DNA from: Terriglobales bacterium | GTDB lineage: Bacteria > Acidobacteriota > Terriglobia > Terriglobales > Acidobacteriaceae | DNA: 64,000 bases | Assembly (NCBI GenBank): GCA_035651655.1 | Contig: DASRFG010000002.1 | Span: 124,001 to 188,000 of the forward strand | Direction: 5' to 3' | In this document: piece after piece, positions 28,950 through 49,928 of the stretch | How the letters are laid out: each line of letters begins with the position of its first letter | Numbering within the stretch: position 1 is the first letter of the stretch | Translations under genes and position numbers: made by a program | The notes under the pieces: model-generated | Database searches by the model: none | Told to the model about the DNA's origin: nothing | The model's input: only the letters and a program-made list of their open reading frames with translations

Positions 28950-29140
28950 CTTCCCGATGCCTCGCCGTAACCGATTTTCGTTTCGTCGAGAGGATAACAC
29001 TGCCCAATGACGCCGCCCGCTAACGCTCATAACTGATTAGAGCGATATCCAGGCAGCACTGTTGCTTAGGCTGCTAATGGATGCAACGACCTAAAATTCC
29101 TTGTTCGGGTACACTGTTCCGTCCAATTCAGGAGAGAGAG

Positions 29141-32160: not shown

Positions 32161-33646
32161 AGAACTTCCGGCTGTGCTCGCGGCCCCAGCGCTCGATAAC
32201 AACTTTCTTGTCGGTGTAGAACTCAATGGCGTCACGTCCCTGGCCGTGCACGGTCCCGAAGAAGCTTTCCTTCCAGCCACTGAAGGGAAAATAGGCCATA
32301 GGGGCGGCCACACCGATGTTGATGCCGATGTTTCCCGCCGGCGCCTCATAGCGGAATTTGCGCGCCGCCGCGCCGCTGGTGGTGAAGATCGAAGCTTGAT
32401 TTCCGTACGGGCTGCTGGCCAGGAACGCGATTGCCTCATCTACGTCGTTCGCTGGAACCAGGCTGAGAACGGGGCCGAAAATTTCGGTGGCCGCGAGCTT
32501 GCTGCCGGGAGGTACTTGGTCCAGTACAGTGGGGCGCACAAAATTTCCGGATTCATATTTCGAAATTTTGGTATGGCGGCCATCCACCAGCACTTTGGCG
32601 CCTTCGCTCGCGCCTTGCCCGATCAGACTCTCAACCCGAGCTTTGCTTTCGGGCGTAATCACCGGCCCCATCTGGACATCGGGATCGAGGCCAAAGCCCA
32701 CGCGCATAGAAGAAGCAGTTTCTGCAATGGTATCGCGAAAAGTTTTCTGCGCCTGGCCCACTGCGACAGCAACTGACACCGCCAGGCAGCGTTGGCCGGC
32801 GCATCCGAATGCGCTCTCGCCGATGATCTGTGCGGCCTGCTGCATGTCGGCATCGGGCAATACGACAACGTGGTTCTTAGCTCCGCCCTGGCACTGTAGC
32901 CGTTTGCCATTTTGCGCTCCACGCGCATACAGGTATTTGGCCACTGGCGTGGAGCCGACAAAACTGACGGCGCGCACGGTAGGATGATCCAAAATTGCGT
33001 CCACCGCGGCTTTGCCGCCATTCACCAGGTTCAACACTCCGGGCGGAAGCCCGAGGGTCTCCATCAGTTGAAACGCCAACTGCATAGTAAGTGGGACGCG
33101 CTCTGAGGGTTTCAGCACAAACGTGTTGCCGCAGGCAATGGCGTAAGGCAGAAACCAGAACGGAATCATCGCCGGAAAATTGAAAGCTGTAACCGCTGCG
33201 ACTACACCCAGCGGCTGGCGGATCATCGTCTCATCAATACCGCGGGCAACGTCTTCCAGGTTGTAACCCTGCATCAGGGTGGGAATGCCGCACGCCACTT
33301 CAACGTTTTCGATGGCCCGGCGCAGCTCCGCTTTTGCCTCGGTGAGAGTTTTCCCGTTCTCGAGCGTAATCGTCCGCGCCAGATCGTCGATGTGGTCTTC
33401 GAGCAGTTGCTTCAGCTTGAACAGATACTGAATGCGCTCTTCGGGCGGAGTGCGGCGCCAGGCAGGAAACGCGGCCGCAGCGGCATCCACTACCGCTCCA
33501 ACTTCTGCGGCGCTCGACATCGGCACCTGCGCCAGCACTTCTCCAGTCGCGGGGTTCGTGACATCGCGGTGCTCGCCTGCGCCAGACTGCCATTTACCGT
33601 TGAAGTAATTGCGGACGGCGGTTTGAGTAGGAGCTGCGATGCTCAT
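32159..33646 (-). CDS. Methylmalonate/malonate-semialdehyde dehydrogenase (CoA-acylating), MmsA-like
   Basis: 495 residues from the ATG at 33646 ([20 protein letters not shown]), preceded by AGGAG; the open frame to 33859 is not used. It is an aldehyde dehydrogenase of the MmsA/IolA group that yields acetyl- or propionyl-CoA plus CO2 with NAD and CoA. Group marks are [39 protein letters not shown], the catalytic Cys in [15 protein letters not shown] near residue 285, and [19 protein letters not shown] at the end. It is the last gene of the minus-strand catabolic group, 130 bases after the GabT-like gene. In beta-alanine breakdown it would convert malonate semialdehyde; the true substrate here is inferred. 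Confidence 0.92.
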
Positions 33647-33776
33647 GGTTATTCTCCTGTAAGAATGCTGGGCTCGCGCTTTTGTTGCCGTCGCTGCGCT
33701 CGCCGGCGCCTGGCGCCGCGCGCAGGTCCTTCGACTCACGCAAAATCGGCGCTCGCTCAGGATGACCATCGAACAG

Positions 33777-35141
33777 CTAGACAGTCTGTGCGGCGACTTC
33801 GCCTTTGGGTTGCAATACCGATCGCAGCGCCGATTCCAAGACCGCCATTCCCTCGTCAAATTGCTCGTCGGTAATAACCAGCGGTGTCAGCCATCGCACG
33901 ACGTTGCCGTAGGTCCCAGCGGAGAGCACGATCACGCCATGCTCGTAGCAATAGCGTATCACTTGTTTGGCATAGTCTTCCGCGGGCTCGCGGGACTCAG
34001 GTGAACGTACCAGCTCCATCGCCTGCATACCGCCCAAGCCTCGTACGTCGCCGATTTCAGGCCACTGCCGCTGCCATTCTCGCGCACGTTTGGCGAAGCG
34101 GCTGCCCAACTCATTCGCGCGATCGAGAAGATCTTCGCGCTCGAAAGTATCCAAAACGGCAAGCGCTGCTTCACAGCACACCGGATTGCCGCCGAAAGTT
34201 CCACCCAGGCCGCCTGCGCCGGGGGCGTCCATCACCTCGGAACGGCCGGTAATGGCCCCTATCGGCAGGCCGCCCCCCAGCGACTTCGCAGTCGCTAGGA
34301 TGTCCGGCTCAATGCCGTAGTGTTCGCACGCGAAGAGTCTGCCGGTGCGGCCGAATCCACTCTGCACTTCGTCGGCGATGAAAAGAATGCCGTGTTTCCT
34401 GCAGATCTCGACGATGATGCGAAAAAATTCAGGGGGCGGCGCGACGAAGCCACCCTCCCCCAAAACCGGCTCAGCGATCACCGCAGCGACTGACTCCGCG
34501 GCCACCACACGCCGGAACGTGTCTTCCAAATGCTGAGCGCAGTAAACGCCACACTCGGGGTACTTAAGCGAATACGAGCAGCGATAGCAGTAAGCAAACG
34601 GAATGCGATAAACATCTCCGGGAAACGGTTCGAACCCTTCTTTGTAGGGATGCGTCTTGCTGGTAAGCGACAGGGTCATCATGGTGCGGCCGTGAAACGC
34701 ATCTTCGAAACAAATGATTGCCGGCCGCTTAGTGTAGGAGCGCGCGATTTTTACCGCGTTCTCTATGGCCTCCGCGCCACTGTTCACGAAAAAAGTCTTC
34801 TTGGGAAAATTTCCCGGCGCCAGCTGGTTCAGCCGCTCCGCCAAACGGACGTAGCCTTCGTACGGCAGGACCTGAAAACAGGTATGCATGTAGCGGTCGA
34901 GCTGCGCGCGCACGGCTTCCAGCACTCCCGGAGAGCGATGGCCGATGTTCTGGCAGCCAATGCCGCCCGCAAAGTCAATGTAGCGGTTTCCGTCCACGTC
35001 TTCTAATACGGCTCCTTCCGCGCGCGCCATGTAAAGAGGCGTGCCCTGGTAGATGCCGCGTGGGACGGCATCGGCACGCCGTCGCATCAACGCTTGCGAG
35101 CGGGGTCCGGGAACAGGCGTACGCAGGCGAATGGTCGGCAT
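33777..35141 (-). CDS. Class III aminotransferase, 4-aminobutyrate aminotransferase-like
   Basis: 454 residues from the ATG at 35141 ([20 protein letters not shown]); upstream open frame lies in the ALDH gene. A PLP enzyme of the GabT/omega-transaminase type: [69 protein letters not shown] and the PLP Lys in [16 protein letters not shown] near residue 285. Substrate may be GABA, beta-alanine or 5-aminovalerate. An insert with four Cys and [20 protein letters not shown] is notable. Its start is one base after the stop of the upstream aldehyde dehydrogenase. Confidence 0.9.
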
Positions 35142-35142
35142 C

Positions 35143-36627
35143 TCAGTCGTACCAGCCGATCGGTTGCTCGTTGAGGTTGATGTGGACCTGCTTGGTCTCC
35201 AGATATTCTTCGATGCCCCACGGTCCCAGCTCGCGTCCAAACCCGGACTGCTTATAGCCTCCCCACGGCGCCTCGACATATGTGGGCTGCATATGGTTCA
35301 CCCAGACTATGCCGGCGCGCAGCGCCTTCACCGCGCGCATGGCTTTAAAGATGTCACGCGTCCAAACCGCTGCAGCCAAGCCATAAGGCGTGTCATTGGC
35401 GATGCGCAGTGCGTCTTTTTCGTCTTTAAAGGGGATTATGCTGGCCACTGGGCCGAAGATCTCCTCGCGCGCGATCCGGGCGTGATTATCAACGTCGTAG
35501 AAGATTGTGGGCTCGATATAATAACCGCGCTTCTGGCCTGAGGGGCTCCCGCCGCCGGTGGCGAGCTTGGCCTCTTTTTTGCCAACCTCCTGATATGAGC
35601 GAACGCGGTCGAATTGCTCCTTGCTGACCACGGGCCCCATCTTCGTGCTGCGCTCCAACGGCGGCCCGAGTTTGATCTTCTTGGCCTTCTCCGCCATGGC
35701 CTCGACGAACTTCGAATAGATCGGCTTCTCGACCAGAATGCGGCTGCCGGCGGAGCAGACTTCGCCCTGGTTAACGAAGACCCCGAAGAGGGCGCCGTCG
35801 ATCGCGGCTTCAAAATCGGCGTCGGCAAAAAAGATGTTGGGAGACTTGCCGCCGAGTTCGAGCGTCACCCGCTTTACGCTGTCGGCGGCCATCTTCACGA
35901 TCTGCTTCCCGACCGCGGCGCTGCCGGTAAAGGCAACTTTGTCCACGCCCGCGTGCTGCACCAGAGGCGCTCCGGCGCTCTCGCCAAAGCCGGTGATGAT
36001 GTTTACTGCTCCGGCGGGCAGCCCGATATCGGCAAACCAGTTTGCCATCTCAAGCACCGTGATGGGAGTTTGTTCCGCCGGCTTGAGCACGCAACTACAG
36101 CCGGCAGCTAATGCCGGCGCCAACTTCCATGCAGCCATAAGAAGTGGATAGTTCCAGGGGATAATCTGTCCCGCCACGCCCACCGGCTCTTTCATCGAGA
36201 GGCTCAGGGCATTGTCGGGCACCGGATTCACGTATCCGAGCACCTTCGTGGCAAGTCCACCATAGTATTCAAAGCAGGTGGCGACATCAGCGATATCGTA
36301 TTCGGCTTCGACTATGGGCTTGCCGGAGTTGCGGCATTCGAGTTCGGCGAGCCTGGCCGATTCCTGACGGATGCGTTCCGCCAACTTGAACAGAACACGG
36401 CCGCGCTCTTGCGCCGTGGTCTTGCCCCAGGGACCGGAGTCGAATACTTCGCGCGCAGCCTTCACCGCGCGGTCCACGTCCTCGGCATTGGCGTCGGGGA
36501 CGTAGGCGATCACCTCTTCGGTCGAGGGATCGTAAACCGGAAAGGTCTTGCCACTGGCGCTATCCACCCATTCGCCATTGATGTACATCTGGTAAGTACG
36601 AACATTAGGTTTGATTGCGGTTGCCAT
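35143..36627 (-). CDS. NAD-dependent aldehyde dehydrogenase, betaine/aminoaldehyde type
   Basis: 494 residues, preceded by GAGGAG. Catalytic Glu in RVTLELGGKSPNIFF and Cys in FVNQGEVCSAGSRILVE are present, with the NAD-site motif VAFTGSAAVGKQIV. Sequence style (FEYYGGLATKVLGYVNPVPD, AWKLAPALAAGCSCVLKPAE, GGYKQSGFGRELGPWGIEEY) is that of betaine-aldehyde and gamma-aminobutyraldehyde dehydrogenases. In this operon it would oxidise the aminoaldehyde formed by an aminotransferase. Exact substrate inferred from context. Confidence 0.92.
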   Translation of the reverse strand: MATAIKPNVRTYQMYINGEWVDSASGKTFPVYDPSTEEVIAYVPDANAEDVDRAVKAAREVFDSGPWGKTTAQERGRVLFKLAERIRQESARLAELECRNSGKPIVEAEYDIADVATCFEYYGGLATKVLGYVNPVPDNALSLSMKEPVGVAGQIIPWNYPLLMAAWKLAPALAAGCSCVLKPAEQTPITVLEMANWFADIGLPAGAVNIITGFGESAGAPLVQHAGVDKVAFTGSAAVGKQIVKMAADSVKRVTLELGGKSPNIFFADADFEAAIDGALFGVFVNQGEVCSAGSRILVEKPIYSKFVEAMAEKAKKIKLGPPLERSTKMGPVVSKEQFDRVRSYQEVGKKEAKLATGGGSPSGQKRGYYIEPTIFYDVDNHARIAREEIFGPVASIIPFKDEKDALRIANDTPYGLAAAVWTRDIFKAMRAVKALRAGIVWVNHMQPTYVEAPWGGYKQSGFGRELGPWGIEEYLETKQVHINLNEQPIGWYD

Positions 36628-36676: not shown

Positions 36677-38101
36677 TCAAACTCTGAGCAGCGCGTTGGC
36701 GGCAGTTTTGCGCCGCCCGTAAACAAAAAAGAAAAATCCTGCGAGGCCGACGAAGAACAGCGTGCCCACCGCCATCTTCACTTCGAATAGCCAAATCGAA
36801 GTGATCTGGTGCGAAGGCACAAAAGCCACGCACATGGCCAGAGCGGTCGTGGTCAGGCCACTGATCCCCGCCAGCTTGAGCGTCGCCGGACTGTAATGGC
36901 CAGCCGTGCTCGTTCGCTTCATACCCAATTTAATCACCGCCGCGTACATATAAAGGAACGGCAGCAATTGCAGAACGACGGCCAGATCCAACATGGTCAC
37001 GAACGCTTCCTTCACTTGTGCGCCGACGAAGCTCATGCTCAAAAACGCCGCCGAAAGCCCGCCATGTACCAGCAACGCCATATGTGGGGTCGCGAACCGC
37101 GGATGCAATCGCCCAAGCGCCTCAGGCAGATAAGCGTCGAGCCCGGCCACAAACGGAATGCGCGCCGAACCCGAGAGCCACGCCGACGCAATTCCCGCGA
37201 TCGAAATGCTCAGCACAAAAGCAAAAGGCGACACAATCCACGCGACTCCCACCTCTTGCGCCATTTTGGCAACCGCTTGCACTACGCCCTGCAAAACGCC
37301 GATCTCGTTCTTAGGCACTGCCAGCAAGAGCGTCAGCGTTGCGCCAATGTAAAGCAGTCCTGAAAATACGCCGCCTAACGCCACCGCCCCAGGCAGGGTA
37401 CGTTGCGGATCACGAATCTCGTCCCCCATGATCGACGCCAGTTCCAGCCCAACCAGGCCGAAGCAGATCACCCCAAACGCCGAAAGCAGGCGAAAGTCGC
37501 TGGGGATGCGGAAATCAGACGCCTTCACGCTGACGCCATGAGTCCACGTGACCCAAATGCCCAAGCCAAGCAGCACCAGCGCAGAAGTTGCCGTACCGAT
37601 GCCGCCCAGATTATTTATCCACTTCCCGACGCCCAGGCCTACCACGTTCAAAGCCACCAGCAGCGCCAGCAATGCCAGAGAAGCGCCCAGGGCGAACCAT
37701 CGATTGTCCGCCAGCGAGGCAGCCCCCGCACCGGCTACAAAAACCGAGATGCCCACGAAGTAGAGCAACACAGTGGGCACGTAGAAAATGTTATTCGTCC
37801 AATAGCACCAGCCCGACAGGAAGCCGTGAAAGTCGCCGAATACCTCTTTGGTCCAGAGATAGACTCCGCCCTCTCCCGGAAAGCGGTGCGCCAGCTCAAT
37901 CACCGCGATCCCTTGCGGCCAGAAGAACAAGACCAAAGCCAGCAGCCACAGCCAAACCGTGACCGGACCATTGGCCGCGATCGTGGGTACAACGTTGAGG
38001 TTGACGATCGCAACTACGAACAGCAGAACCAGGTCCCACCGGCCGAGGACACGCTTGAGATGCGGCGCGCTGACCTCCTCGGCATGGGTCGCGGATGGCA
38101 T
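36677..38101 (-). CDS. APC-superfamily amino acid/polyamine permease
   Basis: 474 residues with about twelve membrane segments. Family marks: LVLLFVVAIVNLNVVPTIAA in segment 1, ELAHRFPGEGGVYLWTKEVF, GFLSGWCYWTNNIFYVPTVL and GLVGLELASIMGDEIRDPQR. These point to the glutamate/GABA or putrescine importers and antiporters of the APC group. Located between the class III aminotransferase (nine bases upstream) and the aldehyde dehydrogenase (49 bases downstream), so it likely imports their substrate. Confidence 0.9.
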   Translation of the reverse strand: MPSATHAEEVSAPHLKRVLGRWDLVLLFVVAIVNLNVVPTIAANGPVTVWLWLLALVLFFWPQGIAVIELAHRFPGEGGVYLWTKEVFGDFHGFLSGWCYWTNNIFYVPTVLLYFVGISVFVAGAGAASLADNRWFALGASLALLALLVALNVVGLGVGKWINNLGGIGTATSALVLLGLGIWVTWTHGVSVKASDFRIPSDFRLLSAFGVICFGLVGLELASIMGDEIRDPQRTLPGAVALGGVFSGLLYIGATLTLLLAVPKNEIGVLQGVVQAVAKMAQEVGVAWIVSPFAFVLSISIAGIASAWLSGSARIPFVAGLDAYLPEALGRLHPRFATPHMALLVHGGLSAAFLSMSFVGAQVKEAFVTMLDLAVVLQLLPFLYMYAAVIKLGMKRTSTAGHYSPATLKLAGISGLTTTALAMCVAFVPSHQITSIWLFEVKMAVGTLFFVGLAGFFFFVYGRRKTAANALLRV

Positions 38102-38110
38102 CGAACTCCG

Positions 38111-39481
38111 CTACTGCGCAACCGCTGCAAACCGCTCCTGCTGGGCTTTGGCCAGCCCCGGCGCAACATCGGAGAACGCCTGCAGGTGCTTGTCAATGTC
38201 CGCCTCGGTATGCGCCACGCTGATGGTCCACTGCTCGTCCCACCAGTAGGGCTGCGCCATCACTCCGCGGTTGACCATGCCGAACCAGTAATGCCGCCAC
38301 AGGTCAATATCAACAGTCGTCCAGTCGCGGTAATTGCGGATCTCCTGCGGATACAGCATCAACGCGCCATTGGCGCCGGCTTGTGCGACGTAGCCCTGCA
38401 ATCCTACCTTGGCCACCGTCTTGCGATAGCCTTCCGTCAATTTCTTGCTGAGCTTGTCCACGTGCGCGTAATTCTCACGCGTGAGCACTTCGCGGAAGGT
38501 CGCCAGCCCCGCCGCCATCGATACCGGATTGGTGTTGTACGTTCCACCATGAAAGACCTTGTGCTGCGAGATCAGGTCCATCACCGATTTGTGCGCGCCG
38601 AAGGCCGCCAGAGGCAATCCGCCGCCAATCGACTTTGCAAGGCAGATCATGTCTGGCCGCACGCCAAAATATTCCGAGGCGCCACCCCATCCCAGCTTTG
38701 CACCGGTTTTTACTTCGTCGAAGATGAGCAAGGCGCCATACCTATCGCACAGGTCCCTCAAACCCTGCAGGAACCCCGGCTGCGGCATACACATCCCGAC
38801 GTTCATCAGAATTGGCTCCAGAATCACCGCGGCAATCTGGTCCGGGTTCTCCTTGAACCGTCGCTCCACGCTATTCAGGTCATTGAAGGTAGCCACGGGA
38901 ACGTTGGCAATACTGGCCTTGGGCACGCCCAGGCCGCCAGGCACTGACGTAGGCGCATGAATATCACCAAAATCCGGTGCGTGCGGCTTCACGCTCACTA
39001 GCGCCGTGTCATGCAGTCCGTGGTACGCGCCTTCGAATTTGATCACCTTGTCTCGACCAGTTGCGGCGCGTGCCAGGCGTATTGCGTGCATCGTAGCTTC
39101 GGTTCCGCTGGAGCCAAACCGCACCATCTCTACCGGGAAACGCTGGCAAATTTCTTCCGCCAGTTGCCATTCCATGTCATGTGGCATGCCGAACATGGTG
39201 CCCAGCTTAAGCCGGGGCTCAACCGCCTTCATCACCGCGGGATGGCAATGCCCCGCCATCAGCGCGCCAAAGCACAGATTGTGATCAATGTAATCATTGC
39301 CATCGAGATCGCGAAAATGCGAACCCTGCGCCTCCTTGACGAAAATCGGGTGGGGATCATAAGCGCGGTAGTTGCTTGCGACACCCAACGGGATGCGCTT
39401 CAGGTTCTTCTTGTAGGCTTCCGCCGACTTGGGCGTCCGCTTCACGAATACATCGAGTTCGTGCTGTAAATCTGCGTGCAT
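38111..39481 (-). CDS. Class III aminotransferase, glutamate-1-semialdehyde aminomutase-like
   Basis: 456 residues from the ATG at 39481, preceded by GGAGAAAGTG. PLP Lys in ICLAKSIGGGLPLAAFGAHK near residue 270; other marks are FGSSGTEATMHAIRLARAAT, KFEGAYHGLHDTALVSVKP and LLIFDEVKTGAKLGWGGASE. It resembles HemL in sequence, but its place in a catabolic cluster and long N-terminus favour an omega-aminotransferase role rather than heme synthesis. First gene of the permease-dehydrogenase-aminotransferase group. Confidence 0.88.
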   Translation of the reverse strand: MHADLQHELDVFVKRTPKSAEAYKKNLKRIPLGVASNYRAYDPHPIFVKEAQGSHFRDLDGNDYIDHNLCFGALMAGHCHPAVMKAVEPRLKLGTMFGMPHDMEWQLAEEICQRFPVEMVRFGSSGTEATMHAIRLARAATGRDKVIKFEGAYHGLHDTALVSVKPHAPDFGDIHAPTSVPGGLGVPKASIANVPVATFNDLNSVERRFKENPDQIAAVILEPILMNVGMCMPQPGFLQGLRDLCDRYGALLIFDEVKTGAKLGWGGASEYFGVRPDMICLAKSIGGGLPLAAFGAHKSVMDLISQHKVFHGGTYNTNPVSMAAGLATFREVLTRENYAHVDKLSKKLTEGYRKTVAKVGLQGYVAQAGANGALMLYPQEIRNYRDWTTVDIDLWRHYWFGMVNRGVMAQPYWWDEQWTISVAHTEADIDKHLQAFSDVAPGLAKAQQERFAAVAQ

Positions 39482-39560
39482 CACTTTCTCCAAATAACTC
39501 AAGCCGCACTGCGGCCATTAGATTGCCTGAGGCTGAACGAAGCCCTGGCGTTTTGCGAAA

Positions 39561-42500
39561 TTAGAAAACGTATTTAAGTGCAAATTGCAGCAGCCGCGGG
39601 TCGCGAGCACGCGTGACCCGTCCGAAATCAACTCCGTTGCTGCTGTTGCCGCTCGGGTTCAGGAACTGCGTGTGATTGAGAGCATTGAAGAACTCAGCCC
39701 GGAACTCAATATGGGTGTTCTCGGTAATGCCGGTATTTTTGTGCAACGCGATGTCCCAATTGTTGATCCCCGGCCCACAACAAATGGTTCGCGGAGCGTT
39801 GCCGATTCGGCCAAACAGCGATGGATCGAGCGTTGTGTCCTCGGTAAAGGTGGTGGGATCGAACCAGTAGCCACCATGCGTCCGCGGATCCTGGGTACGA
39901 AATGGTTTCAGTTGGTCGGGCTCTCCGGGCAATTCGAAATCGAAGCTGTTCATCAGCTCGTTATCGGCCGAGGAGAGAATGCGAATCGGAAATCCGCTCT
40001 GGAAACTAGTAATCCCGGAGAGTGCCCAGCCATTGATCAACTTTCCAGCGGCACCCTGATACTTGGGCAACGGCGGCTCCCAGTAATAACTGAGAACGAA
40101 GCGATGCCGGGCGTCAAACTGCGAGAGCCCCCGGCTGCGTCGCGGATCGACCGGATTCAAAATGCCCTCGAAGCTGGAAGCCTGGTCGATGGACTTGCTC
40201 CAGGTATAAGCCGCCTGGAACTGAAGCCCGCCGGCGAATCGCTTGTCCAGGCTGGCCTGCAGTGAGTTGTAGTTGGAGTTAGCGATCGTGTCCTGGGCAA
40301 AGATGCTTGAGAAGACGGGAACGCTATCGGCAGGGCAGCCTACTCCGGTTGTGGGCTGGCATTGCGGGGACGAAAAGGGCCGGAGGCCCACCAACGTGAT
40401 ATCTGTGGGATTCGGGCCTGTAACTGCGGGAACCGACCCATATGGCAGATGCAAGGTCATCCCCTGAGGGATCGTGTTGGCCGGAATGAAATAAGACGAC
40501 TCAGAAAAGAACTGGCCGCAATCCAAACTTGTGTCTCCGGTAACACCCGAGATGGCATGCAGGTCAAGGCAGGTTTGCGGATTGGCGAAGTTAATGTCAT
40601 GGGTGGCCAGCAGACGATGACCCTGCGATCCCACGTAGCCCACCTGCAATACCAGGTCTTTGGTCAGCTCACGCTGGATGTTCAGGTTGTACTGTGACGA
40701 GTACTGGGTGCGCATCTTGGGTTGAAACTCGCCGAACAACAGGATGGGCCGGAACACTGACCAATCAATCGCCTTGCCGGGTGGTGGATTAAGAACACCG
40801 TTGAACGGATTGGGGACGACAGTCGAGTCCTGCAGCACGAATGGGGTATTGAACATGACGTTAGAAATCCCGGTGCTGCCTCCGAAGGGTGGCTCGGCGC
40901 TGAACTGCTCGAGAACGAGTTGTTCCATTGGGTTGTAGAACAAGCCCCAGCCCGCACGAATGCTGGTCTTACCTGAACTGCCCGGACTCCAGGCTATTCC
41001 GATGCGTGGCGCAAAAGCTTTGTAGTAAGTTTGGGTGAGGCCATTTTGCACTCCCTTGTCACCCGGAACCACCAGCCCGGTTGGAAAAACAGAACTGCAG
41101 TTGCCTAAGGTAGCGGCAGTTGCTGGCGAGAGTTGGCAAGGATAAACGGCGGTCTGCTGCCCCGGCCGGAACGTTTGCACCCGGTGACCGATATCAGTAA
41201 GCGGCGTCTGCAACTCCCAGCGCAGTCCATAATTCAGAGTGATGTTGGGTTTCACCTTCCAGCTATCCTGCGCGAACAGGGCCACGATGGTGCTGCGGAC
41301 GTTTTCAGTTTGCGCCGAACCTTGCAAATAGAAATCAGGGAGGCCTAGCAGATAGTTGGGAAACAGATTTTGGTTCCCGGCCGCATCAGTAGCTATGGGG
41401 TCGTTCACCCCGCCGCCAAAGTAGTTGTATTGGCCGTTTACATCAAAGAATAGCGTCTGGTCGAAGCGCATACGGCGCAAATCGCCGCCAAACTTCATGG
41501 TATGCGAACCCTTGACTTTAGTTACGTTATCGGTCCACTGGAAGGTATTTCCGATCTGCGGAATTTCACCTTCAAAGTTGTTGCCAATACCAAAGCCGCC
41601 GGAAATTGAAATGAACGGCACACCTTCGTGATTCGTGCCCAGATTCGGCGTGATACCCAGCTTCGGATTCGTCGGGTCGCTAAAACACTGGGAAGCCGGC
41701 ACCGTAGCGCATGAATTGTGCACGGATGCGGTCCGCTGCGGATGCAGAAAATCGCCCTGTGCCTGCCGGAAATATGTAAAGCGGAACTCGTTGACCGTGC
41801 TGTTGCTCAGCGTCCAATTGTGAGTAAGGTTCCATTGCTGATAACGCTCATTTGTGATCGCCCCGAACCCAGGCAGGTTGGCGCCACCCGCCTGAAAGCG
41901 CGCAAACGGTGACAATAGGTGAGTATCCGTGAAGTAGTAATAAGCGTTCAGGTTCTGCTTGTCGTTGAGGCGATGGTCAACCCGCATGGTGAACTGATCG
42001 GTACGGTCGCGCTGGTCTGGCGCAGCCTGGAAAAAGCCGTCGGGAGTGTTGGCCAGAGGCACGAATTGGTTCATCAGATCGACCGCTGTGGGATCCATGC
42101 ACGGCAGCGGAATCACGCTATTCGCAAAGATGTCAGCATAATTCGCTCCGGGAACAATCGGCGCCGCAGCTGCCGCTGTACAACCTGGCCTCAAATTGAA
42201 GACATCCGCCACATGTTGGTCCGTTATTGCTCCGGAAAACGGACTCCCGGAGAAATCACCCGCGCGTTCTGCAGCAGTGGGCACGGTGACCGAATCCGAG
42301 GGAATGCCCTTTACCAGGCGACGTCCTTCATAAGAACCGAAGAAGAAGGTCTGGTCTTTCTTAATCGGGCCACCCAACGTCCCACCAAACTGGTTCTGCT
42401 TGAAATCTGGTTTTTGCGTATCGAAGAACCCGCGCGCGTTAAGCACTTTGTTGCGGAAAAATTCGTACGCGCTACCGTGCAACCGATTGGTACCGGACTT

Positions 42501-43244
42501 AGTCACCACGTTCACAATTGCGCCGGAATTGCGTCCGTACTCCGCGTCAAAAGTGTTAGTGATGACGCGGAACTCCTGAATGCTATCCGGACTCGGCTGG
42601 ATTGCGGGCAGATTCACAAACTGGTCGTTGGCGTCGCCACCGTTCACACTGAAATTGTTGGAGCGTCCCCGGCCGCCATTCACTGAAACGACGCCGGCGC
42701 GGTCACTACCGTAGAACAAATCCGAACCGACCGTTGACTGCACACCGGGTTGTAGCTGGAGAAACTGATATGTATCCCGCGAATTCAGCGGCAACTGCGA
42801 GACCGAGCGGTCATTGACCACCGCGCCCAACTGTGTGCTGGTGGTGTCAACCAGCGGAGCTTCGGAAGTTACTTCGACCGTCTCCTGTGCCCCACCCACC
42901 TGCATGATCATGTTCATGGTGAGGACCTGGTTGATCTCCAGGACAATGCTCTTCTTCACTGCTTTCTTGAAGCCGCTCTGGTCGAATTCCATGCGGTAGT
43001 TGCCCACCGCCACTTGGGGGAACTGGTAGTCGCCGCTCTGGCCGGTCTGGGCGGTTTGTGAGGTGCCGGTTTGCTCATTGATCAGCTTCACGTTCACGCC
43101 GGAAAGCACCGCGCCCGTGGGATCAGCCACACGGCCGAGAATGCGCCCGCCGGTGCCTTGGGCGAGAGCGGCAATGCTAAACCACGCCAATAGAGAAATG
43201 ATTACAACGCAGCGTAACGCGCGAAACGTCGCTGAGGGATGCAT
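39561..43244 (-). CDS. Oar-type TonB-dependent receptor with carboxypeptidase-regulatory domain
   Basis: 1227 residues from the ATG at 43244, preceded by CGGAGG. A signal peptide (CVVIISLLAWFSIAALAQ) leads to a carboxypeptidase-regulatory-like beta-sandwich (GRILGRVADPTGAVLSGVNV, about residues 35-115), a plug region (GAVVNDRSVSQLPLNSRD, NAFDAEYGRNSGAIVNVVTK-like segment) and a long beta-barrel that ends in aromatic residues (LQFALKYVF). This is the acidobacterial Oar/TonB family of outer-membrane transporters. It starts 153 bases from the divergent regulator and may take up the substrate of the nearby cluster, which is inferred. Confidence 0.9.
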   Translation of the reverse strand: MHPSATFRALRCVVIISLLAWFSIAALAQGTGGRILGRVADPTGAVLSGVNVKLINEQTGTSQTAQTGQSGDYQFPQVAVGNYRMEFDQSGFKKAVKKSIVLEINQVLTMNMIMQVGGAQETVEVTSEAPLVDTTSTQLGAVVNDRSVSQLPLNSRDTYQFLQLQPGVQSTVGSDLFYGSDRAGVVSVNGGRGRSNNFSVNGGDANDQFVNLPAIQPSPDSIQEFRVITNTFDAEYGRNSGAIVNVVTKSGTNRLHGSAYEFFRNKVLNARGFFDTQKPDFKQNQFGGTLGGPIKKDQTFFFGSYEGRRLVKGIPSDSVTVPTAAERAGDFSGSPFSGAITDQHVADVFNLRPGCTAAAAAPIVPGANYADIFANSVIPLPCMDPTAVDLMNQFVPLANTPDGFFQAAPDQRDRTDQFTMRVDHRLNDKQNLNAYYYFTDTHLLSPFARFQAGGANLPGFGAITNERYQQWNLTHNWTLSNSTVNEFRFTYFRQAQGDFLHPQRTASVHNSCATVPASQCFSDPTNPKLGITPNLGTNHEGVPFISISGGFGIGNNFEGEIPQIGNTFQWTDNVTKVKGSHTMKFGGDLRRMRFDQTLFFDVNGQYNYFGGGVNDPIATDAAGNQNLFPNYLLGLPDFYLQGSAQTENVRSTIVALFAQDSWKVKPNITLNYGLRWELQTPLTDIGHRVQTFRPGQQTAVYPCQLSPATAATLGNCSSVFPTGLVVPGDKGVQNGLTQTYYKAFAPRIGIAWSPGSSGKTSIRAGWGLFYNPMEQLVLEQFSAEPPFGGSTGISNVMFNTPFVLQDSTVVPNPFNGVLNPPPGKAIDWSVFRPILLFGEFQPKMRTQYSSQYNLNIQRELTKDLVLQVGYVGSQGHRLLATHDINFANPQTCLDLHAISGVTGDTSLDCGQFFSESSYFIPANTIPQGMTLHLPYGSVPAVTGPNPTDITLVGLRPFSSPQCQPTTGVGCPADSVPVFSSIFAQDTIANSNYNSLQASLDKRFAGGLQFQAAYTWSKSIDQASSFEGILNPVDPRRSRGLSQFDARHRFVLSYYWEPPLPKYQGAAGKLINGWALSGITSFQSGFPIRILSSADNELMNSFDFELPGEPDQLKPFRTQDPRTHGGYWFDPTTFTEDTTLDPSLFGRIGNAPRTICCGPGINNWDIALHKNTGITENTHIEFRAEFFNALNHTQFLNPSGNSSNGVDFGRVTRARDPRLLQFALKYVF

Positions 43245-43296: not shown

Positions 43297-43335
43297 TTGC
43301 GCAAACCACCAACCTTGCTATAATCCCGCAAGGTT
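43297..43335 (+). promoter_or_regulatory. Promoter with inverted-repeat operator before the MerR-XRE-cupin gene
   Basis: TTGCGC (43297-43302), a 16-base spacer and a perfect TATAAT (43319-43324) form a plus-strand promoter. The TATAAT lies in the loop of a perfect inverted repeat, AACCTTGC (43311-43318) and GCAAGGTT (43328-43335), with nine bases between arms. A protein bound here would cover the -10 element, so it is a strong candidate operator for autoregulation by the next gene and perhaps for control of the divergent receptor. Confidence 0.6.
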
Positions 43336-43398
43336 AGAGAACGTGCCCGCTGGCTGTCAAGGGAAAAACGCTGCCGCGTGGCCAGCCTGGCGAGTCGC

Positions 43399-44208
43399 AT
43401 GAACGAGTCCACTCACCCCAACAACAAGGGATATTTAAAGATAGGCGACGTGGCTCGCCAGGTCGGCGTGTCCCCGTCTGTAATCCGATCTTGGGAGAGT
43501 CTGGGACTGACGCGTCCGCAACGGACCGCCAGTCGCTACCGCCTGTACAGCAGCGAGGATGTGAAACTGCTCAAGCGCGCACGTTTCTTGCGCCGCGTTC
43601 GGGGCATGAACGCTCCTGCGATCGTGCAAATGCTCAAAAGCAAGGGACTGGTGCGCACCTCCCCGGACGGGGCGGGAGGGGGCATCGGCCTGCGCTTGCG
43701 CAGTCTGCGCACCCGCCGAGGACTCTCGTTGGCGGAGGTAGCTAAATCGGTGGGGGTTTCCGTAGGGTTTCTAAGCGCTCTGGAACGTTCGCAGATGAGC
43801 GCCTCCATCGGCACACTGCGCAAGCTCGCGCGCTTTTACAAAACCAACATTCTCGATTTCTTTGACGCGAAAACATCCAATTCGCACCTGGTACGGCCTG
43901 AGAAGCGTAAAGTGCTGGAAGCCGGGCCGGGTGTACGCATGGAACTGCTGGCTTGGGGAAACGCGGTGATGGAACCGCACCTGTTCCGCATCGCCCCAAA
44001 AGCAGGCAGTGGCGACTCCTATTCGCACGATGGCGAAGAATTCTTGTTCGTGTTGCGCGGAGAATTGAAGATTGCGCTGGATGGGCAAGAGTATCGTCTG
44101 AAGCGCGGCGACAGTTTTTATTTTGAGAGTCCCACGCCGCACACCTGGTTGAATCCCGGACCGAGTGAGGCCTGGGTGCTTTGGGTGAACACTCCGCCCA
44201 CGTTCTAA
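43399..44208 (+). CDS. Transcription regulator with MerR, XRE and cupin domains
   Basis: 269 residues from the ATG at 43399; a GTG at 43378 would add seven. Three parts: a MerR-type winged helix (GYLKIGDVARQVGVSPSVIR, SWESLGLTRPQRTASRYRLY; residues 12-85), an XRE helix-turn-helix (LRSLRTRRGLSLAEVAKSVG, VSVGFLSALERSQMSASIGT; about 98-150) and a cupin (SHDGEEFLFVLRGELKIALD, YRLKRGDSFYFESPTPHTW; about 200-265). XRE-cupin proteins such as PuuR control polyamine and GABA catabolism, matching the genes around it. The extra MerR domain gives two DNA-binding modules in one chain. It heads the plus-strand group including potDABC. Confidence 0.9.
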   Translation: MNESTHPNNKGYLKIGDVARQVGVSPSVIRSWESLGLTRPQRTASRYRLYSSEDVKLLKRARFLRRVRGMNAPAIVQMLKSKGLVRTSPDGAGGGIGLRLRSLRTRRGLSLAEVAKSVGVSVGFLSALERSQMSASIGTLRKLARFYKTNILDFFDAKTSNSHLVRPEKRKVLEAGPGVRMELLAWGNAVMEPHLFRIAPKAGSGDSYSHDGEEFLFVLRGELKIALDGQEYRLKRGDSFYFESPTPHTWLNPGPSEAWVLWVNTPPTF

Positions 44209-44221
44209 TGTCGGAGGATTG

Positions 44222-46012
44222 ATGGCAAGAAGATCTTCGCAAAGTTACAGCCGATTGCGCCGTGAGCTTTTAATTCGAGTCGGTATGGTGGGAATTTGCT
44301 CTGTCGCACTCTCCTTACTGTTTGCGAGTGCGGCAGTTGCCAAAGACTCTCCCGCTCCGGCCGACACCGTCCTGCTGAACGCTAGGATTTACACCGTCAA
44401 CTCGCGACAACCGTGGGCCGAAGCGCTCGCGATTCGCGGTGACAAGATCGTGGCGGTAGGCTCTGCCAAGCAAATTGCCGCCTATCGCGGTCCTTCGACC
44501 CGCGTTATAGATGCCAAGAACCACCTGGTTCTGCCCGGCTTCACCGATTGCCACATTCACTTCATGGATGGCTCGATTAGCCTGGGCCGGGTCAACGTGG
44601 AAGGCGCCAAGAACGTCGAAGAAATTCAGAAGAAAGTGAAGGACTACGCCGACGCGCATCCCAATGCGCCTTGGATTCTCGGCCGGGGCTGGTCGTATCC
44701 GGCATTCGGCGCCGCAGCATTGCCAGACAAAAAGTATTTGGATGCGGTGGTGGCGGACCGTCCGGTTTACCTTGAAGGTTTTGATGGGCACACCTATTGG
44801 GCCAACAGCAAAGCCCTGGTGGCCGCCGGAATCACTCGCGATACTCCCGATCCCCCCAACGGAAAGATTGTTCGCGATCCTAAAACCGGTGAGGCCACGG
44901 GAGCGCTAAAGGAAGCTGCCTTCAGCCTGGTGGACAAAGTCGTACCTAAGCCCAGCCGTGAAGAGCGCCGCGAAGCACTTCGTCAGGGAATTCGCGAGGC
45001 CAATAAAGCTGGTCTGGTTCGGGTCCACAGCGCCGGTCAGGACTTCGAATGGCTCGATCTTTATGATGAGTTGCGAAAGAAAGGCGAGCTTACACTGCGC
45101 TTCTATGTTGCGTATTTCCTCGACCCGCCGGAGCTGACCTCTGCCGAACTTCAAAAAATCGAGGAGGCCAGCAAGACCTATCATGATGAATGGATCTCAG
45201 GAAGTGTGGTTAAGACCATGCTCGATGGGGTCGTCGAGTCGCACACTGCGGCTATGCTTGAGCCTTACTCAGACGATCCCAGTCAGAGCGGAAAAATGTT
45301 CTGGGATCCCGCGAAATACAAGCAGGCGGTAACGGAATTGGACCGGCGTGGATATCAAATTTTTACTCACGCCATCGGGGATCGTGCAGTGCGCCTGGCG
45401 CTGGATGCTTACGAGGAGGCGCACAAAGCAAACCACACCACGGATTCTCGCGACCGCATCGAGCACATCGAAACCATTACCGCGGCTGATATCCCACGCT
45501 TTGGCAAGCTGGGCGTGATCGCCAGCATGCAGCCGCTCCACGCATATCCAGATGAAGACACACTCGGTGTATGGTCGCGCAATGCCGGACCGGAGCGGGC
45601 CACGCGAGCCTGGTCTTGGCGCAGCATCAATGCAAACGGCGGCCGGCTCGCGTTCGGGAGCGATTGGCCGGTGGTGACCTTGAACCCATGGCAAGGGGTG
45701 CAGAACGCCCTCACCAGGCAGAGTCGGGAGGGGACGCCGCCGGGTGGATTCGTCCCTCGCGAACGACTCTCTCTTGCGAAGACAATCGAGGCATATACCT
45801 TGAGCGCCGCCTATGCCGGGAAATTCGAGAAAACGGAAGGCTCCCTGGAGCCTGGCAAAGTGGCTGACTTGATTGTGCTTTCGCAGGACTTATTCAAGGT
45901 GGATCCTCACAAGACGGCAGACACCAAAGTTCTGTTGACCTTGGTGGCTGGCAAGACTGTGTACGAGTCGCCAGAATGGTCCGGCAAATCCGCAGCCGCC
46001 GGGGGAAGATGA
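44222..46012 (+). CDS. Exported amidohydrolase (YtcJ-like)
   Basis: 596 residues from the ATG at 44222; GGAGG is at 44213-44217 and a TTG at 44219 is an alternative. A signal peptide (VGICSVALSLLFASAAVAKD) precedes an amidohydrolase-3 domain. Metal ligands are visible: H-x-H in GFTDCHIHFMDGS, His in FTHAIGDRA and RIEHIETITA, and Asp in LAFGSDWPVVTLNP. Relatives include N-substituted formamide deformylase; the substrate is unknown. It overlaps potD by four bases, so it probably supplies or trims an amide whose amine product is imported. Confidence 0.9.
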   Translation: MARRSSQSYSRLRRELLIRVGMVGICSVALSLLFASAAVAKDSPAPADTVLLNARIYTVNSRQPWAEALAIRGDKIVAVGSAKQIAAYRGPSTRVIDAKNHLVLPGFTDCHIHFMDGSISLGRVNVEGAKNVEEIQKKVKDYADAHPNAPWILGRGWSYPAFGAAALPDKKYLDAVVADRPVYLEGFDGHTYWANSKALVAAGITRDTPDPPNGKIVRDPKTGEATGALKEAAFSLVDKVVPKPSREERREALRQGIREANKAGLVRVHSAGQDFEWLDLYDELRKKGELTLRFYVAYFLDPPELTSAELQKIEEASKTYHDEWISGSVVKTMLDGVVESHTAAMLEPYSDDPSQSGKMFWDPAKYKQAVTELDRRGYQIFTHAIGDRAVRLALDAYEEAHKANHTTDSRDRIEHIETITAADIPRFGKLGVIASMQPLHAYPDEDTLGVWSRNAGPERATRAWSWRSINANGGRLAFGSDWPVVTLNPWQGVQNALTRQSREGTPPGGFVPRERLSLAKTIEAYTLSAAYAGKFEKTEGSLEPGKVADLIVLSQDLFKVDPHKTADTKVLLTLVAGKTVYESPEWSGKSAAAGGR

Positions 46013-47076
46013 CGCTACTACGCCGTATCCTGATCGCGCTGGCGCTGCTGCTGGCTGGGCTGTTTGTTTCCTGTTCCAAAAAACAGCCCACTCTGAACCT
46101 GCTCGTGTGGGAAGGATATGCTGACCCTTCATTTGTGCGCGGATTCGAGGAGCAAAACCACTGCAAGGTGTCGGCCTCCTACATGGGCTCAAGCGACGAA
46201 TTGGTCGCCAAGCTGCGTGGCGGGAGCGCCAGCACCTACGACGTAATCTCTCCTTCGAGCGACGTGGCTACCATGATCGCAACTTCGGGATTGGCGGCCC
46301 CGCTTGACCTCTCGCGCATTCCGACCTACTCGCAGCTTTCGCAGCACCTGACCTCGATGCCGCTGGTCAAAACTGGCGGGCAGGTCTTCGGTGTGCCGTT
46401 CCTTTGGGGTCCGAATCCCCTGCTCTACGACACCACCGTATTTTCTAAAAGCCCGGAAAGCTGGAGCGTCTTCTGGGAACCCAAGTACCGCGGAAAAATT
46501 TCTGTTTGGGACGATCTCTCCACGGTGTATATGGCGGCGCAGCTTCTGGGTTATGACAAGCCCGATCCCAGCCATATGTACAACTTGAGCGATCAGGAGC
46601 TCGATGCCGTAAAAGCCAAGCTCCTGGCGCTGAAGCCGAACATCCGCAAAATCTGGTCAACCGGAGGCGAACTGACCAATCTTTTTCAGAACCACGAGGT
46701 CGTGGCCGCCATGGGATGGCCCCTGATGACCAACCAGCTTCGCAAGTCGAATTTCCCAATCGGCGAGACCATTCCCCGCGAAAATACTACCGGGTGGATT
46801 GATCAACTGATGATCACCAGTGCGAGCGAGAATAAAGACCTGGCCTATAAATTTTTGGAGTACATGACCAGCGCCCAAACCCAGAAGAAAGTCACCGACG
46901 TCACCGGATATACGCCGGCGAATCCGCAGGCGGCGCAGTTCATGACCGCAGAGGAGAAGAAGAACCTTCACCTCGACAATGTGGACGAATACCAAAAGCG
47001 TATTTACTTCTGGCAGAATGTCCCTCGACGCGCCAAGTACAACGAGATTTGGAACGAGGTCAAAGCCGCGCAATAG
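46009..47076 (+). CDS. potD: Polyamine ABC transporter substrate-binding lipoprotein (PotD-type)
   Basis: 355 residues. The ATG at 46009 overlaps the amidohydrolase stop as ATGA; an in-frame ATG at 45976 is less likely. Lipobox LFVSC near residue 20 anchors it. The body matches spermidine/putrescine-binding proteins: LNLLVWEGYADPSFVRGFEE, YDVISPSSDVATMI, VPFLWGPNPLLYD and DQLMITSASENKDLAYKFLE. Polyamine preference cannot be told apart from related substrates by sequence alone. Confidence 0.9.
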   Translation: MTLLRRILIALALLLAGLFVSCSKKQPTLNLLVWEGYADPSFVRGFEEQNHCKVSASYMGSSDELVAKLRGGSASTYDVISPSSDVATMIATSGLAAPLDLSRIPTYSQLSQHLTSMPLVKTGGQVFGVPFLWGPNPLLYDTTVFSKSPESWSVFWEPKYRGKISVWDDLSTVYMAAQLLGYDKPDPSHMYNLSDQELDAVKAKLLALKPNIRKIWSTGGELTNLFQNHEVVAAMGWPLMTNQLRKSNFPIGETIPRENTTGWIDQLMITSASENKDLAYKFLEYMTSAQTQKKVTDVTGYTPANPQAAQFMTAEEKKNLHLDNVDEYQKRIYFWQNVPRRAKYNEIWNEVKAAQ

Positions 47077-47115: not shown

Positions 47116-48264
47116 ATGATGGTATCAACGGAAACAGAATCTCTTCCTGGCGCTGCGGCTGTCTCCAAAACTCACCCGTTGCTCTCGATCCGTGCCATCG
47201 CTAAGAGCTTTGGTAAGACGCGCGTGCTGCGCGACATTTCCTTGCACGTGGATGAGGGTGAATTCCTCACCGTTCTGGGCGAGAGTGGATCAGGCAAGAC
47301 CACCCTCTTGCGCCTCATCGCCGGCTTCGAGCATGCCGATTCAGGGGAGATTTGGATGGGCGGCGAACGCCTCGATTCGCTGCCACCCTATCGGCGCCGC
47401 GTGAACACAGTCTTCCAGAGCTATGCGCTTTTTCCCCATCTTTCGGTCTGGAATAACGTGGCCTACGGTCTGCGGGTGCGGAAAATCGCTAAACAGGAAA
47501 TTGACGCGCGCGTCGAACAGGCGCTCACCATGGTGAAGATGAGAGCCTTGGCGCAGTCGAAACCCTCAAGGATCAGTGGCGGGCAGCAACAGCGGGTGGC
47601 ATTGGCCCGCGCCCTGGTGAATCGCCCGCGCCTCTTGCTGCTGGATGAGCCACTTTCCGCGCTGGACGCCAATCTCCGTCGCCAAATGCAATTGGAGCTG
47701 AAATCATTGCAGCGCGAGGTTGGCATCTCTTTCGTTTTCGTCACTCATGACCAGGAAGAAGCTATGGTCATGTCCGATCGCATTGCTTTACTCCGCAACG
47801 GCGAGCTTGAGCAGGTTGCCACACCGCGCGACATCTACGCTCGCCCAGCTACCACCTACACCGCCCAGTTCATCGGACATACCAATCTCTTGCGCTGCCA
47901 AGTAAGCGGTGGGATTGCCCGTTGTGGAAAGCTCGTGTTCGCCGTTACCACCGAGGATGGTCCGGCGATATTCTCCCTGCGACCTGAGCATATCCGCGTT
48001 GTCGGTTCCTCCGCAGGACCATCGAGTCCTGGCGCGGTCCGCTTCTGCGCCGCGGTCCGCAGCCAGTCATTCCATGGCGCGACGGAACTGCTGCAAGTTG
48101 AAGCCAGCGACGGGTTGAAGCTCTCTGTGCGCATTTCGGGGCAGAAATCTCAGCCAAAAGGTGTACCGGGCGTCGAACCTGAGTTTGAGTTTTCAGCAAA
48201 CGATGCGGTGCGAGTCCGCGATACCAGTCTCACATCGCCAGCTGAAAACCAGAAGAGCAGCTGA
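47116..48264 (+). CDS. potA: Polyamine ABC transporter ATPase (PotA-type)
   Basis: 382 residues. Walker A LGESGSGKTTLLRLIAGFEH near residue 55, Q-loop FQSYALFPHLSVWNNVA, signature RISGGQQQRVALARALVN near 155 and Walker B RLLLLDEPLSALDANLR, then the H-loop VFVTHDQEEAM. A C-terminal TOBE region (RPEHIRVVG ... SFHGATELLQVE) is typical of PotA/MalK-type importers. Two ATGs at 47116 and 47119. Couples ATP hydrolysis to polyamine uptake; the stop TGA is followed at once by the potB ATG. Confidence 0.93.
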   Translation: MMVSTETESLPGAAAVSKTHPLLSIRAIAKSFGKTRVLRDISLHVDEGEFLTVLGESGSGKTTLLRLIAGFEHADSGEIWMGGERLDSLPPYRRRVNTVFQSYALFPHLSVWNNVAYGLRVRKIAKQEIDARVEQALTMVKMRALAQSKPSRISGGQQQRVALARALVNRPRLLLLDEPLSALDANLRRQMQLELKSLQREVGISFVFVTHDQEEAMVMSDRIALLRNGELEQVATPRDIYARPATTYTAQFIGHTNLLRCQVSGGIARCGKLVFAVTTEDGPAIFSLRPEHIRVVGSSAGPSSPGAVRFCAAVRSQSFHGATELLQVEASDGLKLSVRISGQKSQPKGVPGVEPEFEFSANDAVRVRDTSLTSPAENQKSS

Positions 48265-49113
48265 ATGTTTTCACGCGCCTATAAACTGGCCATTACGGTG
48301 CCGCCCTTGTTGTGGGTGACGATCTTTCTTCTGGTGCCCTACGTTTTGCTTTTTTGTTACAGCTTTTGGACAGTCACACCGTCACAGACCATCGTCCACC
48401 AGTGGAACCTGAACAATTACCGCGAGCTGCTAGCGGTTCCCGTTTACCTGCAGGTATTGTTTCGTTCCATGCGGACCGCCGGTTCGGTGATGGTCCTGGC
48501 CCTTCTGCTCGGATATCCGATGGCCTATTATCTTTCGTTTTATGCGGGCAAGCGCAAAGATTTGCTCTATCAGCTGGTGATCATTCCCCTGTGGGTGAGC
48601 TATCTGGTGCGCGCATATGCCTGGAAGACAATTCTCGGCAGCGACGGTGTCTTGAACACCTTGTTGCAGTACGTTCACGTGACTCATCATCCGCTCGGTT
48701 TTCTTCTTTACAGCCCGTTCGCGGTGGTGCTCACCCTCACACATATCTACACACCATTCGCCTTTTTGCCAATTTATGCTGCGCTCGAGCACATCCCACG
48801 CAACCTGGTGGAGGCCTCGCATGATCTGGGCGCGTCGCCGCTGCAGACGTTTTGGCGAGTCGTCTTCCCGCTCTCTATTCCGGGGGTGCTGGCGGGCGCT
48901 ACCTTTGCCTTTGTGCTGAGTCTGGGAGATTTTTTGGCGCCTCTCCTCTTGGGTGGACCGAGCGGAATCATGATCTCCAACATTGTGGTCAGCCTGTTCG
49001 GGGCTGCTTATAACTGGCCCCTGGGCGCAGCGATTTCCTTATGCATGTTGGCGCTGGTTGTTGGCTTGCTATTTATTTCTGAACACCTGGAGAAGCGCTG
49101 GGCGTACCGATGA
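48265..49113 (+). CDS. potB: Polyamine ABC transporter permease (PotB-type)
   Basis: 282 residues with six membrane segments starting at VPPLLWVTIFLLVPYVLLFC. The ABC permease EAA loop is seen as EASHDLGASPLQTFWRVVFP around residue 190. SILMVPLWVSYLVRAYAWKT-type region (here IIPLWVSYLVRAYAWKTILG) is characteristic of PotB. The ATG directly abuts the potA stop, and the gene overlaps potC by four bases. Confidence 0.92.
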   Translation: MFSRAYKLAITVPPLLWVTIFLLVPYVLLFCYSFWTVTPSQTIVHQWNLNNYRELLAVPVYLQVLFRSMRTAGSVMVLALLLGYPMAYYLSFYAGKRKDLLYQLVIIPLWVSYLVRAYAWKTILGSDGVLNTLLQYVHVTHHPLGFLLYSPFAVVLTLTHIYTPFAFLPIYAALEHIPRNLVEASHDLGASPLQTFWRVVFPLSIPGVLAGATFAFVLSLGDFLAPLLLGGPSGIMISNIVVSLFGAAYNWPLGAAISLCMLALVVGLLFISEHLEKRWAYR

Positions 49114-49928
49114 GAAACACTGTCCCAAGATCGCGCTGGCTCTCAATCCATTCGTGGGTGGTGTTCGCTTTTCTTTACCTGCCAATTCTGGCGCTCATCG
49201 TTTACTCATTTAACGGCGCGGGCGTCGCTGGTTTTCCACCACACGACCTGACTTTCAGTTGGTACAAGATACTGCTTAAAGACGGCGCCATTTGGGAGTC
49301 GGTACTCAACAGCCTGAGGGTGGCGTTGGTTGCAATGGGGATCTCATTGCTAATTGGTATGCCCGCAGCATTGGCGCTCGATCGCGCATCGTTTCCCGGA
49401 AAAGCCGTCTTCCGCCGTCTGGTGCTGCTGCCCCTTATTCTTCCTGGCATTATCACCGGACTTTCTTTGCTGATGCTGTTCGTCATGCTGCACATGAAGC
49501 TCAGTCTGCTTACCATCACTCTCGGTCATGGCACGGCACTAATCTCGGTAGCTACTACTGAGATTTTTGCGGGACTGCAGAAATTAGATCGCGCGCAGGA
49601 GGAGGCCTCACTGGATCTGGGCGCCAATTATCTGCAAACCTTTTGGCGAGTGACACTCCCGAATCTGCGCTTGTCCATCATCGGGGCTGCGCTGCTCATC
49701 TTTACTCTTTCAATGGACGAGATCGCGGTAAGCTTCTTTTTGATCGGCAGAGACAATACCCTACCGCTGGAAATCTGGTCGCGTCTGCGGCGCGGCATCA
49801 CCCCTGAGATCAATGCCATCTCCACCATCATTTTCTTTTTCTCACTTGCCACAATTGTGCTGTGGTATCGGCTGAGAACTCGCGCCCACGGGCAACCCGA
49901 TATCGCCTCCGAGCTGGGCAATTTTTAA
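49110..49928 (+). CDS. potC: Polyamine ABC transporter permease (PotC-type)
   Basis: 272 residues, start ATG overlapping the potB stop (ATGA). Six membrane segments; first segment VVFAFLYLPILALIVYSFNG, EAA loop EEASLDLGANYLQTFWRVTL near residue 165 and the PotC-like phrase FTLSMDEIAVSFFLIGRDNT. Last gene of the six-gene plus-strand group. No clear terminator follows. Confidence 0.92.
   Translation: MRNTVPRSRWLSIHSWVVFAFLYLPILALIVYSFNGAGVAGFPPHDLTFSWYKILLKDGAIWESVLNSLRVALVAMGISLLIGMPAALALDRASFPGKAVFRRLVLLPLILPGIITGLSLLMLFVMLHMKLSLLTITLGHGTALISVATTEIFAGLQKLDRAQEEASLDLGANYLQTFWRVTLPNLRLSIIGAALLIFTLSMDEIAVSFFLIGRDNTLPLEIWSRLRRGITPEINAISTIIFFFSLATIVLWYRLRTRAHGQPDIASELGNF

Follow-up and report, generated by a model that had tools for sequence, protein, structure and literature searches.

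Gene content of the locus

The locus lies in a 64-kb stretch of DNA from an acidobacterial soil bacterium (the window) and consists of two sets of genes transcribed away from each other, with a transcriptional regulator at the head of the rightward set. The genes and the parts of the regulator are listed below.

32159..33859, minus strand: aldehyde dehydrogenase, methylmalonate-semialdehyde-dehydrogenase (MMSDH)-like (ORF, assigned by reading; order conserved in L108 and L110)
33777..35279, minus strand: second class-III aminotransferase, GabT-like by its relatives (ORF; conserved order)
35143..36627, minus strand: aldehyde dehydrogenase, betaine/aminobutyraldehyde-like (profiles; conserved order)
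36677..38101, minus strand: APC amino-acid/GABA-antiporter-like permease (profiles; conserved order)
38111..39502, minus strand: class-III aminotransferase, glutamate-1-semialdehyde aminomutase/GntE-like (profiles; conserved order)
39561..43244, minus strand: TonB-dependent receptor with a carboxypeptidase-regulatory-like domain, first leftward gene (Pfam; in nearly all orthologue loci)
43399..44208, plus strand: regulator gene, 269 aa (Pfam and NCBIfam matches, family alignment, AF2 model)
about 43438-43641, plus strand: MerR winged helix-turn-helix (wHTH) part of the regulator gene (Pfam/NCBIfam)
about 43696-43854, plus strand: XRE/HTH_3 part of the regulator gene (Pfam/NCBIfam)
about 43981-44187, plus strand: cupin part of the regulator gene (Pfam/NCBIfam)
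44222..46012, plus strand: Amidohydrolase_3 family hydrolase, after the regulator (Pfam; absent from many orthologue loci)
45976..47076, plus strand: PotD/YdcS-like substrate-binding protein (profiles; neighbourhood)
47116..48264, plus strand: PotA-like ABC transporter ATPase (NCBIfam; neighbourhood)
48265..49113, plus strand: PotB-like permease (NCBIfam; neighbourhood)
49110..49928, plus strand: PotC-like permease (NCBIfam; neighbourhood)

Nearly every orthologue locus has a divergent TonB-dependent receptor on one side and the regulator, an optional amidohydrolase and PotD/A/B/C-like genes on the other. The leftward order of GSA-type aminotransferase, APC permease, aldehyde dehydrogenase and second class-III aminotransferase recurs in three further genomes, and the MMSDH-like dehydrogenase continues this unit in two of the three genomes read more widely. 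A preliminary description of this DNA, made from the letters alone, had placed the regulatory site between two halves of an island, and the divergent genes are indeed halves of one functional island. The second aminotransferase has relatives of 48-52% identity beside distant regulators; these distant regulator homologues (38-47% identity) adjoin GabT-like aminotransferases and some also adjoin TonB receptors. Based on this gene content, and on PuuR being the nearest family for the XRE-cupin part of the regulator (see below), the pathway controlled is likely to be omega-amine or polyamine catabolism. Near the catabolic cluster, an ORF at 29081-30316 appears by eye to be DmpA-type aminopeptidase-like and may or may not belong to it. 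The ORF at 30727-31272 looks, also by eye, like a REP-associated tyrosine transposase, and the reading MEAHGFSRAKR occurs at two places (window 30727-31272 and 32093), perhaps as a REP-like repeat.

A regulator with two DNA-binding domains and a cupin

The preliminary description saw three domains within one protein, and Pfam agrees: MerR_1 at residues 14-81 (62 bits), HTH_3 at 100-152 (57 bits) and Cupin_2 at 195-263 (68 bits) all score above their curated cut-offs. The start codon is most likely the ATG at 43399. Among curated NCBIfam families the nearest for the XRE-cupin part is the putrescine-utilisation regulator PuuR (NF007408), at 76.8 bits against an equivalog cut-off of 211, and the second-best match, on the MerR part, is HspR, at 41.7 bits against a cut-off of 105. 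A fold search gave the Vibrio HTH_3-cupin protein 1y9q as the best PDB match; beside it ranks an enzyme whose layout is likewise HTH-cupin, the fosfomycin epoxidase HppE. This MerR-XRE-cupin architecture is already present in databases, as "MerR family", and we found no characterised protein of this kind in the open-access literature.

In the family alignment the C-terminal NTPPTF is invariant, as are, entirely or nearly so, the cupin residues H210, E213/E214 and H248, so that binding of a metal or ligand by the cupin is plausible. In the AF2 model (mean pLDDT 77, pTM 0.47) low-confidence linkers separate three parts: the MerR wHTH, the bundle of the XRE domain, and the cupin. One such linker, at about residues 82-92, follows the MerR domain, and the long dimerisation helix or coiled coil of MerR proteins was not seen after the wHTH in this model, a monomer prediction with a pTM of only 0.47. 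The regulator therefore probably dimerises through its cupin, as XRE-cupin proteins do.

A palindrome over the promoter region

The intergenic region upstream of the regulator carries the following elements.

43297..43302, plus strand: -35 box TTGCGC, rightward promoter (spacer of 16 bp; orthologues keep the TTG)
43311..43335, no strand: predicted operator dyad AACCTTGC-TATAATCCC-GCAAGGTT (25 bp, exact; family core TTGC-N9-GCAA)
43319..43324, plus strand: rightward (regulator) promoter, -10 box TATAAT (within the dyad; invariant in orthologues)
43331..43336, minus strand: predicted -10 box TAACCT of a leftward promoter (spacer of 18 bp; overlaps the right arm)
43355..43360, minus strand: predicted leftward -35 box TTGACA, TGTCAA on the other strand (within CTGTCAAG; 18 or 19 nt past the dyad in 57/59 rows)

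The palindromic operator over a -10 box that had been described earlier is borne out by the sequence. The TATAAT lies inside the dyad, but it abuts the left arm (43319-43324) and is not at the dead centre, as had been stated. Within the window the dyad is the sole match at ≤3 mismatches, with a chance expectation of 0.35. The search for further copies that had been suggested found no second full-length exact copy in the 4.07-Mb source genome. The inner 21 bp, CCTTGC-N9-GCAAGG, has one other exact copy there, and there are a number of one-mismatch copies; the former, and every one of the latter whose locus was retrieved, are in long open frames, leaving 43311-43335 as the only intergenic copy found. 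A wider regulon in the source genome was rejected on these grounds.

We searched genome contigs for orthologues and found 56 in Acidobacteriota (L046-L101; 63-88% identity over the match), one of them clipped by a contig end. The dyad alignment comprised 59 rows, or 58 distinct loci (L017 and L085 are on the same contig), with L076 left out at its contig end. The preliminary description had staked its reading on conservation of the repeat upstream of orthologues, and AACCTT[G/A]C-TATAAT with the right arm is kept in each of the 58 distinct loci whose upstream DNA could be read. The G/C pair of the arms is kept in 53 of the 59 rows, the other changes being few and at single arm positions. The dyad lies anywhere from about 60 to 150 bp from the gene, and the majority of flanking columns hold less than 0.5 bit. 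A site kept at variable distance within low-information flanks argues for selection on the site itself, not general similarity, and on this sequence comparison we take the palindrome to be under selection and not a product of chance. In one genome alone the dyad would be weak evidence; its conservation makes the evidence strong. Some changes are coordinated between the two arms, as in L097 (CTTAC/GTAA) and in the second dyad copy of L095 (CCTTAC-N9-GTAAGG). In L095 the entire promoter-operator unit is duplicated in tandem, with the copies some 140 and 110 bp ahead of the regulator.

In 14 related genomes, a search at ≤3 mismatches gave one dyad in 10, located at the regulator, two in genome G655 and none in the remaining three, and the reversed control pattern had no match across these 14 genomes. 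The three genomes without a match carry a more diverged version upstream of the regulator. The form found in a second family is AACCTTAC-TATAATCCN-G[C/T]AAACTT.

The alignment also points to promoters on both strands. On the regulator side, counting from a TTG at dyad-relative positions -14 to -12, the promoter reads TTGnnn-N16-TATAAT in 51 of 59 rows, and five rows have an N17 spacer. Starting 17 or 18 nt past the dyad, the block CTGTCAAG is conserved in 57/59 rows and also in the second family; on the opposite strand it is CTTGACAG, which reads as a -35 box. With one further base, the right arm gives AGGTTA (TAACCT on the reverse strand), which falls at the corresponding leftward -10 position, at a spacing of 17 or 18 bp across rows. 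TAACCT is a weak match to a -10 box; its T, A and last T (TA---T) are conserved, and they persist in the second family with its altered middle bases. These elements would make up two interlocked divergent promoters, with starts about 7 bp apart and one dyad covering both.

The dyad beyond close orthologues

A plasmid collection held 123 records, mostly from rhizobia, that encode regulator homologues of ~40% identity, 121 of which match over at least 80% of the query; where annotated, these are named 'MerR family transcriptional regulator'. The rhizobial three-domain homologues (Sinorhizobium, Shinella, Agrobacterium) are full-length, at 38-42% identity over 95-100%, and the dyad core is present in most. 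Unlike the regulator studied here they face gabT or gabT-gabD and not a TonB operon: in annotated records the homologue is divergent from gabT-gabD in Sinorhizobium medicae and three Shinella strains, and from gabT in Agrobacterium/Allorhizobium. The intergenic regions read TTGC-ATTTTTTCT-GCAA in Sinorhizobium and Ensifer, CTTGC-ATTTTTTCT-GCAAG or CTTAC-ATTTTTTCT-GCAAG in Shinella (CTTGC-N9-GCAAG in strains H4-D48 and HZN7), and TCTAC-ATTTTTTCG-GTAGA in A. vitis. Arms and spacing agree between rhizobial and acidobacterial dyads, whereas the spacer sequence differs and the rhizobial dyads lack the central TATAAT. The Shinella regions have a further copy of similar sequence, 33 bp from the first. 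In four loci (L153, L155, L165 and L166) the dyad occurs twice in direct orientation in the gabT-regulator interval, at a distance of 33 bp, an arrangement that suggests cooperative same-face binding or looping.

Another acidobacterial class (G492, L125) has TTGC-AAAGGTACT-GCAA beside a three-domain protein, and Aminicenantia-like members have TTGT-N9-ACAA in place of TTGC-N9-GCAA. G655 (L179) carries three dyad copies, at 1710, 5608 and 6629, ahead of three genes (APC permease, regulator and GabT-like); together these would constitute a small multi-site local regulon. Its GabT operator comes after a TTGACA-N17-TATTCT promoter, and its regulator copy is without TATAAT. The tie between dyad and family is not universal among members: no recognisable dyad was found in the upstream regions examined for the G144, Paracoccus and Roseateles members, and no TTGC dyad for the second paralogues in G600, G620 and G644 (L180, L181, L182). 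These paralogues are diverged (43-45% identity), lie beside TonB-receptor-like genes and possibly use a different operator.

A perfect TATAAT inside a palindrome could also be expected if the palindrome served as a promoter or RNA hairpin and had nothing to do with the regulator next to it. We regard this as scarcely credible. Transcription starts would fall inside the palindrome, so that neither transcript would contain the full hairpin, the arms recur beside relatives without TATAAT, and single genome copies track the regulator.

A predicted ligand-relieved repressor

From the domains, the dyad and its conservation, the cross-phylum tie to the family, the conserved promoter blocks and the genes of the locus, all read from the sequence, we infer a mode of binding, repression and induction and a class of ligand: the regulator is probably a local, ligand-relieved repressor of omega-amine/polyamine catabolism that acts by promoter occlusion. 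A dimer would bind the 25-bp dyad at its core TTGC-N9-GCAA and, positioned on both -10 boxes, would bar RNA polymerase from both transcription units: on the left the TonB receptor, aminotransferase, permease and dehydrogenase genes, on the right the regulator's own gene with those for the amidohydrolase and the PotABC-type transporter. An omega-amine/polyamine (GABA/beta-alanine-type) metabolite bound to the cupin would lower the affinity for DNA and release both units.

This proposal resembles what is known of XRE-cupin repressors. Every one studied in P. aeruginosa inhibits the genes next to it, with promoter occlusion as the probable mechanism (PMC7901475), and the 20-bp palindrome protected by DbuR takes in the -10 (PMC12724383). 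PuuR, PauR, PsdR, ErfA and DbuR share with the regulator the order HTH_3 then Cupin_2, local action on amine or amino-acid catabolism neighbours (here predicted from sequence), a palindrome over the -10 and predicted binding of an inducer by the cupin. In contrast to these, the regulator adds an N-terminal MerR winged HTH, so that its XRE domain is not N-terminal and the protein not two-domain, and it has a predicted TTGC-N9-GCAA operator shared across phyla and, at this locus, one dyad over two predicted interlocked promoters. Since the MerR domain precedes the XRE domain, the regulator is not a plain XRE-cupin member.

The MerR domain is a genuine winged HTH (62 bits), a fold in common with the classical activators CueR, ZntR, SoxR and MerR, and the preliminary description had suggested that the fusion could act MerR-style on a promoter of altered spacing, which in its full form would mean an activator that bends or twists an over-long spacer. 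That suggestion did not hold up, and we consider such an activator very improbable. The spacer is 16 or 17 bp and not 19-20, the dyad is centred on the -10 and not between -35 and -10, and the G655 operators lie just downstream of the -10 or are without TATAAT. Nor was a dimerisation coiled coil or an effector loop like those of the classical activators seen in the AF2 monomer model (pTM 0.47). Ordinary spacing, a -10-centred dyad, the lack of this helix in the model and the G655 sites fit repression by occlusion. HspR, whose HAIR operator is CTTGAGT-N7-ACTCAAG, is a MerR-family repressor (PMC6102357). The regulator shares with it a MerR wHTH and a dyad with CTTG/CAAG outer bases, but the arms are 2 bp closer together (TTG-N11-CAA here, TTG-N13-CAA in HAIR), XRE and cupin domains are added, the predicted targets are metabolic and not heat-shock genes, and the score is far below the HspR cut-off.

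A switch, in which the bound protein blocks its own promoter and permits or activates the overlapping leftward catabolic promoter, also appears improbable. MerR-family proteins can activate, and the two predicted promoters share the same DNA, so that polymerase could occupy only one at a time. However, the dyad overlaps the predicted leftward -10 as well, and each G655 unit carries a separate dyad near or over the start.

The findings suggest an unnamed, widespread family of local repressors that would turn on amine-breakdown genes when food is present. A family filed in databases as plain MerR gains a predicted operator, predicted targets and a testable mechanism; it occurs in two distantly related bacterial phyla, and its rhizobial members face genes for GABA utilisation.

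Which domain reads the dyad

The architecture poses the question of why two complete DNA-binding domains are retained and which of them reads the dyad. We infer that TTGC is read mainly by the MerR domain, with the cupin (together with the XRE domain) serving dimerisation and sensing. Three observations indirectly favour MerR: absence of the dyad from XRE-cupin relatives without MerR, where TT[G/A]C-N9-G[C/T]AA was found within 320 bp upstream of 0/25; the likeness to the HspR half-site; and divergence of the XRE recognition helix, which is SVGFLSALER in Acidobacteriota and IAASVLSTLER in rhizobia with the dyad core unchanged. The first and last of these are not decisive against the XRE domain, as the operators of XRE-cupin proteins are diverse. 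An XRE domain that reads TTGC-N9-GCAA, with MerR contacting flanking DNA or being only structural, is somewhat unlikely to our minds, even though the XRE domain is intact and conserved in the family and characterised XRE-cupin proteins bind 15-25 bp palindromes near the -10; the logic of repression would be unchanged.

We also sought to assign the dyad to one HTH by covariation, an approach that was rejected. In the acidobacterial class, TTAC sites go with 'LR' in the MerR helix and TTGC sites with 'IR/MR', and the XRE helix is nearly constant. However, the two groups coincide with the two families, and TTGC occurs in rhizobia that have 'LR', which makes the pattern no more than suggestive.

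Alongside MerR as the main reader, both domains may contact DNA. In such a dual-reader dimer, which we hold to be unlikely, MerR would hold TTGC-N9-GCAA, XRE would contact other conserved bases such as the outer AA/TT, AGAGAA or CTGTCAAG, and the ligand would balance the two promoters. If true, the dual reader would be a distinct class of regulator common to Acidobacteriota and rhizobia.
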